This document shows positions 37,608 to 53,881 of a stretch of 64,000 bases of DNA, piece by piece. A program made the position numbers and the translations under genes. The notes beneath the pieces were generated by a model. The model worked only from the letters and a program-made list of their open reading frames with translations. It was not told where the DNA came from and did no database searches. Source of the stretch: Saliphagus infecundisoli (lineage in GTDB: Archaea > Halobacteriota > Halobacteria > Halobacteriales > Natrialbaceae). Numbering within the stretch: position 1 is the first letter of the stretch; each line of letters begins with the position of its first letter. The stretch is taken from assembly GCF_020177375.1 (NCBI RefSeq), contig NZ_JAIWHV010000001.1:310001-374000 (forward strand). The letters run 5' to 3'.

Positions 37608-37682
37608 GGGTTGGTGGTCTAGTCCGGTTATGACACCTCCTTGACATGGAGGAGATCGGCAGTTCAATTCTGCCCCAACCCA
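37608..37682 (+). tRNA. tRNA-Val(GAC)
   Basis: All arms pair: acceptor GGGTTGG with CCAACCC, D-arm GTC...GAC, anticodon stem CCTCC/GGAGG around TTGACAT (anticodon GAC), T-arm GGCAG/TTCAATT/CTGCC, discriminator A. There is no intron and CCA is not encoded. The gene is followed without a gap by an array of hairpins built from copies of its T-arm. Confidence 0.97.
37659..37682 (+). repeat. T-arm/acceptor repeat, copy 1 (inside tRNA-Val)
   Basis: These last 24 nt of tRNA-Val, running from gcagttcaattc to the discriminator, occur again exactly at 37836-37859 and with two changes in the core at 37948-37967. Confidence 0.9.
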
Positions 37683-37835
37683 TTTTTGGACGATAATTCG
37701 AGGAGCGTAGCGACGAGTCCATCGCCCGAAAATGGTAGCCAAAGAATTGAACGACGCGAGTCGCGCGCAGCGAAAGCGCGGTCGCAAAGCGACCGCGAGT
37801 GCGAACGGCGAAGCCGTGAGCGAGCACGTCTCGCA

Positions 37836-37859
37836 GCAGTTCAATTCTGCCCCAACCCA
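37836..37859 (+). repeat. T-arm/acceptor repeat, copy 2 (exact echo of tRNA-Val 3' end)
   Basis: An exact 24-nt copy of 37659-37682, displaced by 177 nt. The D and anticodon arms are not copied. It forms the right arm of hairpin B1. Confidence 0.9.
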
Positions 37860-37947
37860 CTGATTTTGCGCCGAACGACTCGTGAGGCGCAAATCCGTTA
37901 CGTTTGGGCGAATTGAACCAGGGAGTGAAGCGGAGCGAAACGACCGT

Positions 37948-37967
37948 GGTTCGATTCTGCCCCAACC
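37948..37967 (+). repeat. T-arm/acceptor repeat, copy 3 (diverged echo)
   Basis: Matches 18 of 20 nt of tRNA-Val T-arm and acceptor. One change (A to G in the T-loop) makes a G-U wobble with the inverted left arm at 37910-37920, so pairing survives. Confidence 0.85.
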
Positions 37968-38026
37968 GGTTTCCGGGCGATGACTCGAGGCTCACGGAAG
38001 CCGCCGATTCCGGGACGGTGACGCGT

Positions 38027-53637: not shown

Positions 53638-53722
53638 GCCGAGATAGCCTAGCCCGGCCAAGGCGGTAGATTCGAAATCTACTGTCCTCACGGACTCGGG
53701 AGTTCAAATCTCCCTCTCGGCG
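53638..53722 (+). tRNA. tRNA-Ser(CGA)
   Basis: Acceptor GCCGAGA pairs with TCTCGGC, the anticodon stem GTAGA/TCTAC holds the loop TTCGAAA (anticodon CGA), a long class-II variable arm (TGTCCTCACGGACTC) follows, then T-arm GGGAG/TTCAAAT/CTCCC and discriminator G, as expected for serine. There is no intron. A hairpin array built on its T-arm follows at once. Confidence 0.97.
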
Positions 53723-53723
53723 C

Positions 53724-53856
53724 TTTTCACGACGCACCACGGCGAGCGAAGCGAGCCGCCGCGTCGTGAAAACGCGAACGGCGAGATTTGTACGAAACCG
53801 AGGGTCTGCGAACGGAGTGAGCAGGTTCTCGGGGGTGGTTCAAGTCTCCCTCTCGG
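53724..53856 (+). other. Hairpin array downstream of tRNA-Ser
   Basis: The first hairpin has a perfect 12-bp stem: TTTTCACGACGC (53724-53735) with GCGTCGTGAAAA (53761-53772), loop containing CGGC/GCCG around gagcgaagcga. The second hairpin has GAGATTTGTAC (53783-53793), the inverse of the tRNA-Ser T-arm with one change, pairing with the T-arm echo at 53838-53848 (10 of 11), and an inner CCGAG/CTCGG (53798-53802, 53828-53832). The design is the same as behind tRNA-Val although the sequences differ. No coding frame of quality was found in 53723-53881. Confidence 0.75.
53837..53856 (+). repeat. T-arm/acceptor echo of tRNA-Ser
   Basis: Matches 18 of 20 nt of the tRNA-Ser T-arm and acceptor (53701-53720), displaced by 136 nt. 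Only the 3' part of the tRNA is copied. Confidence 0.85.
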
Positions 53857-53881
53857 GGAGCCGTCGGTCGATTCCGTCGAG

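Follow-up and report, generated by a model that had tools for sequence, protein, structure and literature searches.

Hairpin arrays built on copies of the resident tRNA 3′ end follow tRNA genes across haloarchaea

What is the run of hairpins that directly follows a tRNA-Val gene in the haloarchaeon Saliphagus infecundisoli? The window (the whole stretch of DNA that was analysed, 64,000 nucleotides) carries tRNA-Val(GAC) at 37608–37682 (ARAGORN; RF00005, 63.8 bits), and this gene anchors an array on the same, forward strand. We use E for the 21 nt from tRNA G53 to the discriminator base and rcE for the inverted T-loop and T-stem of E. The array then reads E-A1-rcE-B1-E-A2-rcE-B2-E-A3, in which the initial E (E0, 37662–37682) is the last 21 nt of tRNA-Val(GAC) itself and lies inside the gene. 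Hairpin A1 (37682–37733) begins at the discriminator base and has the tip GGAGCGTAGCGA. It is followed by rcE1 (37744–37752), an inverted T-loop, GAATTGAAC, with the same unusual AATTC T-loop as tRNA-Val(GAC), and by the B1 core (37753–37838), a member of a B family with a 41-nt core, here with a nested insertion of 46 nt in the apical loop. Our covariance model of this family, R1, recognizes B1 with 53 bits (E value of 2.6e-9 over 37740–37851). The first unit is closed by E1 (37839–37859), which repeats the 21 nt of the tRNA 3′ end with 0 mismatches. The second unit comprises hairpin A2 (CTGATTTTGCGCCGAACGACTCGTGAGGCGCAAATC) with a spacer (37860–37909), rcE2 (37910–37918, the inverted T-loop GAATTGAAC again), the B2 core (37919–37948; R1, 29.6 bits), which belongs to a CAGGGAG...CGACCGTG family found again at other tRNAs, and E2 (37949–37969), a third copy of the tRNA-Val 3′ end with 3 mismatches. 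The fifth hairpin, A3 (37970–38003; folded region 37966–38005), resembles A1 in its left half.

An earlier note on this DNA had described five tandem hairpins here, with arms that are direct and inverted copies of the tRNA T-arm. The arms are as it described: the direct copies start at 37662, 37839 and 37949, the inverted copies lie at 37744–37752 and 37910–37918, and a G·U pair that it placed in the third copy does form between rcE2 (GAATTGAAC) and E2 (GTTCGATTC). The count of five needs a correction. We compared the single-strand fold of each hairpin with 200 dinucleotide shuffles under RNA parameters and repeated the comparison under DNA parameters; A1, B1, A2 and B2 fold better than their shuffles (RNA z scores of −3.65, −3.7, −3.27 and −5.38), whereas A3 (z of −1.51) was equalled by 19 of 200 shuffles with RNA parameters and was also the sole hairpin of the array not beyond chance with DNA parameters. 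A3 is probably a decayed distal remnant. The tRNA gene is flanked by a trpD-like gene on one side and a phosphate permease on the other. The nine main open reading frames between 30 and 44.4 kb encode ribonucleotide reductase, Trp genes, the phosphate permease, and BrkB, CAP, CBS and FNT/Usp proteins, and include no recombinase or integrase gene; no attI was seen next to the array in the same interval.

The array is not a peculiarity of tRNA-Val. A second one in the window follows tRNA-Ser(CGA) (53638–53723, forward strand) and spans 53724–53858 on that strand, with an A hairpin, a B hairpin (53781–53850; R1, 26 bits) and, at 53838–53858, a copy of E that has 2 mismatches. Across the host genome, and excluding one dense cluster of tRNA genes on contig 25, we searched the 300 nt downstream of each tRNA gene for its own E, allowing up to 4 mismatches. 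Such copies follow 14 of 45 tRNAs, compared with 1 of 1,854 swapped pairings of tRNA and downstream sequence, and they occur behind genes for Val, Ala, Gly, Arg, Ser, Met, Pro, His and Leu, among others. Arrays thus stand behind about one third of the host tRNA genes, which rules out a Val-specific feature. Model R1 finds 10 sites in this genome, all 10 directly behind tRNAs. The cluster on contig 25, a small contig (6686–9493), consists of about 14 densely packed tRNA-like genes, none of which has an array, and by its appearance is of viral or plasmid type.

How far do these arrays extend beyond the host? A T-loop, an inverted T-loop and a further T-loop at array spacing occur in 221 of 293 genomes and in 79 of 88 genera of the host's order, and the same pattern reversed, our control, occurs in 0 of the 293. 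Together with the swapped-tRNA control, this rules out a chance origin. R1, which represents one B family, matches 162 of 195 genomes of the order and, in a sample of the phylum, 40 of 43 haloarchaea. Among 204 genomes from other orders of the phylum, neither the T-loop pattern nor R1 gave a match, a scarcity that is to be read with the choice of the pattern on haloarchaeal tRNAs, and the construction of the model from them, in mind. A scan of GTDB genomes returned at least 120 loci. Haloarchaea, including Haloferax, Halorubrum, Haloarcula, Natrinema and Natrialba, make up most of the 80 matches listed, and at least 122 tRNAs among the matches listed carry an E copy; the non-archaeal matches could include false positives of a tRNA-Ser type described below. 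The earlier note had named a covariance-model search for other loci as a test of its proposal, and further loci were indeed found. When we inspected 40 R1 loci (10 in the host and 30 elsewhere), 39 had a predicted tRNA 28–434 nt upstream, and the remaining one (L389) had an E-like 21-mer 68 nt upstream.

Rare look-alikes with the order E, rcE, E follow tRNAs outside haloarchaea, in Methanomassiliicoccales (L190), Woesearchaeota (L232 and L250) and a metagenome-assembled genome of Oligoflexia (L244). The last of these has a full-length inverted copy, exact over 21 nt, at tRNA-Arg(ACG). Four matches came from viral contigs. One of them (L176) is a real array that follows tRNA-Glu and may be host flank; the other three are adjacent tRNA-Ser genes in which the TGA anticodon arm mimics GATTTGAAC, and are not arrays. 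The B-family pattern gave 0 matches in viral contigs. Given that arrays are nearly absent from these contigs, we reject carriage by viruses.

Comparison of many arrays defines the unit as an A hairpin, rcE, a B hairpin and E, in which E copies the stretch of the resident tRNA that begins at G53 and ends with the discriminator base. We extracted 347 units, which follow 249 tRNA genes from 34 isoacceptor classes; as the set was gathered by searching, this count gives no frequency, and as units were recognized by their closeness to E, decayed units are undercounted. Units are typically 107–126 nt long (5–95% range, 95–155 nt), and the T-rich start of A directly follows the tRNA 3′ end. The identity of E copies that is specific to the own tRNA stops sharply at G53 and at the discriminator. 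In rcE, the variable T-loop base agrees with that of the own tRNA in 93% of units. Besides the T-loop, some 4 nt of the T-stem match the own tRNA; over the acceptor, the fit is hardly better than in swapped pairings, which rules out a full-length fold-back copy in haloarchaea. Arrays are also polar. In 43 arrays of at least two units, E copies have on average 0.28 mismatches nearest to the tRNA and 1.63 at the far end, and the first copy has fewer mismatches than the last in 25 arrays and more in 4 (P = 4e-5).

The cores between these local ends travel more widely. Relatives of the B1 core of the window stand behind Lys(CTT), Lys(TTT) and Ser(TGA), 86–93% identical over 71–72 nt, and behind His(GTG), with 86% identity over 92 nt, and each is closed by the E of its own tRNA. 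At His(GTG), the inverted T-loop is of a generic type and not the tRNA's own, as if it had arrived together with the core. Other B cores differ by 0–2 mismatches behind different tRNAs of different genera. The number and combination of units also change between close relatives. In genus g47, arrays behind orthologous tRNA-Gly(TCC) and tRNA-Arg(CCG) genes with the same downstream genes vary in unit number and in the pairing of A and B: L123 has two units, L126 combines the A type of the first unit with the B type of the second, and distal units are truncated in L118 and L122. At the tRNA-Arg(CCT) site of genus g45 there are none, one or several units. This site (L300–L326) also has a second class of unit that is built on only the last 13 nt (CCCGTCACGCCCG), alternating with its inverse, and whose TTCG-type tips represent the GAGCGAAGCGA motif, apparently on the opposite strand.

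Other repeats were seen at such sites. In genome G177 (C1:1878082–1878804; L346–L351), a tRNA-Gly(TCC) is followed by a run of six or more identical B cores, most of them spaced 111 bp apart. Directly behind tRNA-Arg(CCT) in L304, L308 and others there is a different repeated palindrome, ACCTTTTNCTGCGCTC...TTGCAAAACGTTGATGAAAA, which also occurs elsewhere nearby. Downstream of the same tRNA in L305 and L308, a downstream coding stretch, ATCCGTCGCCGTG...GTTGATGAGCGTCTTC, is partially duplicated beside this palindrome.

Is the hairpin structure itself maintained? The earlier note had argued that pairing in the A stems is kept by compensation, and comparison with other genera bears this out: in first-position Val A hairpins, with the stem anchored on its outer 5 pairs only, inner pairs are Watson–Crick in 73% of cases, compared with 35% when 3′ arms are exchanged between genomes. 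The covariation test that it had proposed for the family as a whole points the same way. In the B family with the 41-nt core (36 sequences from many tRNAs), we counted 80 pair-keeping double-sided changes, compared with 32 in shuffles; none of 500 shuffles reached 80, and the signal collapses in slid structures. The hairpin structure is selected, or renewed intact.

The tips share a design in which the stem is followed by a tandem G-A/A-G, two base pairs and a small loop. Triloops are GNA in 67 of 86 cases, and the 27 tetraloops comprise 19 GNYA, 6 GNAB and 0 GNRA. GNRA would be expected in an RNA under selection for stability, whereas GNNA and GNAB tetraloops are favoured in DNA. GNA loops, likewise, are the textbook case of DNA mini-hairpins with extraordinary stability (PMC6479982 and references therein). 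The tips therefore fit stable DNA mini-hairpins better than the usual RNA tetraloop. The tip motif lies on the tRNA-sense strand in 209 cases and on the opposite strand in 4. G·T mismatches show a mild excess over A·C mismatches (35 versus 18), a wobble pair stands at model columns 13/55 in 16 of the 36 B-family sequences, and the B fold is cleaner with RNA parameters than with DNA parameters. Neither energy folding nor the mismatch count was decisive as a discriminator between DNA and RNA.

We tentatively favour, as plausible, the reading that the arrays are gene-less, hairpin-forming DNA cassettes that sit directly behind tRNAs across the haloarchaea and are added by recombination at position 53/54 of the tRNA. 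A unit of the form E-A-rcE-B would enter at the start of the T-loop; its incoming E would restore the tRNA 3′ end, the T-rich A segment would come to lie directly behind the new end, and the old 3′ end, now displaced downstream, would become the next copy of E. The recombination site could be the folded rcE-B-E hairpin, much like the folded attC of integrons. Insertion at 53/54 would account at once for the own-E copies, the exact boundaries and the polarity, as the most perfect E copies are expected nearest to the tRNA if new units enter there. Turnover of units and cores common to different tRNAs also speak for recombinational addition, which we infer from these patterns, as does the preference of archaeal integrases for tRNA 3′ ends (PMC8371274). 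Against it count the lack of a candidate recombinase, either beside the window array or linked to arrays elsewhere; the need for the E of a unit to match the tRNA, such that a switch of target requires a further step; the near absence of arrays from viral contigs; and the cleaner B fold with RNA parameters.

The sense-strand bias, the covariation and the G·T excess also fit an RNA. Read-through of the tRNA could yield a structured trailer whose A and B hairpins steer 3′ processing, protect the transcript or give rise to small RNAs, with E copies that form a pseudo T-arm and acceptor strand. We consider this, taken as a whole, rather unlikely, even though the folded strand is the tRNA-sense strand, the orientation downstream of the tRNA is fixed and columns 13/55 often wobble. 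It leaves the turnover unexplained (the loss and reshuffling of units between congeners and the distal decay), most tRNAs of the same genome do without an array, GNRA tetraloops are missing and the short units of g45 appear to carry the tip motif on the other strand. We lean towards a DNA-level reading mainly because of turnover, polarity and the sharing of cores, not because of the loops. In fold-back replication, a fork stalled at the tRNA would switch template at the hairpins, copying E backwards as rcE and then forwards as E, a micro-scale inverted triplication that unequal recombination would then expand into an array. The alternation of E, rcE and E with a palindrome at every junction suits such an origin, as do the almost always local E and rcE (including the AATTC T-loop in tRNA-Val and its copies) and the exact full-length rcE of the Oligoflexia genome. 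We nevertheless judge it unlikely, as B core families common to different tRNAs and genera, the exact boundaries at 53 and 73 and the near restriction to haloarchaea are left unexplained. It is very improbable that the E copies are attachment sites that remained after tRNA-integrated viruses or plasmids were lost. E does resemble an att core, and ends of haloarchaeal prophages with partial tRNA copies are known (PMC3119063), but chance loss of large elements would not yield one short unit design of 95–155 nt with conserved A and B hairpins at hundreds of loci. Reverse transcription of mature tRNA is disfavoured, as E is without CCA and spans T-loop positions whose modifications are expected to block reverse transcriptase.

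The earlier note saw here either a structured RNA or a palindromic element that propagates itself and makes use of tRNA 3′ ends, and the strong covariation and the tRNA-3′-end specificity largely uphold this reading; it has to be amended in that the arrays belong to many haloarchaeal tRNAs, with arms from the resident tRNA and cores in common. Its statement that it knew of no described family with this design also finds support. Rfam 15 has no family for the arrays and gives RF00005 at the tRNA only, other matches being far below gathering scores, and we found no description of hairpin arrays at tRNA tails in the open-access literature, subscription journals being outside the search. The evidence points to an unrecognized kind of tRNA-anchored, modular repeat, and the family, which most of the haloarchaea examined carry and which is tied to essential tRNA genes, appears to be undescribed so far. 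It shows tRNA 3′ ends to be dynamic building sites, at which copies of a genome's own tRNA ends are stored in arrays with hairpin cores common to different tRNAs and genera. Should the recombination reading be true, the arrays represent a recombination system that works on folded DNA and lies outside bacterial integrons, and they could be a means of replacing or repairing tRNA 3′ ends; should the RNA reading be true, they represent a class-wide tRNA-linked RNA. As Haloferax species have arrays, either can be tested in genetically tractable haloarchaea.

Several known systems resemble the arrays in part. CRISPR arrays likewise duplicate a repeat and are intact proximally and decayed distally, but here the tRNA supplies the repeat from its own end, conserved hairpins take the place of ‘spacers’, with B cores common to different tRNAs rather than unique sequences, and no cas genes were found among the scanned genes that neighbour the window array. 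In Dictyostelium, extra B boxes that copy the T-loop consensus stand about 100 bp behind tRNA genes; these belong to a eukaryotic Pol III context and come without hairpin arrays, and archaea are not known to have TFIIIC. The PATEs (IS605-related palindromic elements) and SMRs of Haloquadratum are also short, non-coding, palindromic haloarchaeal repeats; the description of PATEs drawn on here (PMC3119063) neither links them to tRNA 3′ ends nor presents them as copies of a resident gene. Dispersed insertion at unrelated sites, as is typical of IS200/IS605-type elements or MITEs, was not seen among the 10 host sites or the 40 inspected loci, of which all 10 and 39, respectively, lie behind tRNAs.

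Archaeal tyrosine integrases that target tRNAs (SSV, SNJ2 and pT26-2) duplicate the tRNA 3′ end and leave the tRNA intact (PMC8371274), and the own-E copies similarly place a direct repeat of that end at both ends of a unit. Units of 95–155 nt are too short for a gene-bearing element between tRNA and copy; at about 110 bp, with an inverted T-loop, conserved hairpins and a presence at roughly one third of the tRNAs of one genome, they differ from the att sites of such elements.

Like the haloarchaeal arrays, the attC arrays of integrons consist of tandem units and are polar, and their palindromic site leaves some bases unpaired and varies in its apical part. GTT stands at the base of the site in both, the haloarchaeal T-loop being GTTCRAATC and the attC consensus GTTRRRY. 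The folded integron site has an extrahelical T and G on one side, six bases apart (PMC3053210). Model columns 45 (T) and 52 (G) would have this spacing, but T45 is paired with A22 in 10 of 36 sequences, and the CCTG family has a base other than G at column 52. The haloarchaeal arrays differ in that integrase and attI were not seen, cassettes are without genes, anchors are many tRNAs, arms are matched to the tRNA and the setting is archaeal. It is possible, although we regard it as doubtful, that an archaeal integron-like system, whose autonomous element was not found, is active across the haloarchaea, with tRNA T-arms as attachment sites and folded hairpins as tRNA-matched cassettes. As in integrons, each unit is closed by a folded palindromic site, here the rcE-B-E hairpin with its covariation.
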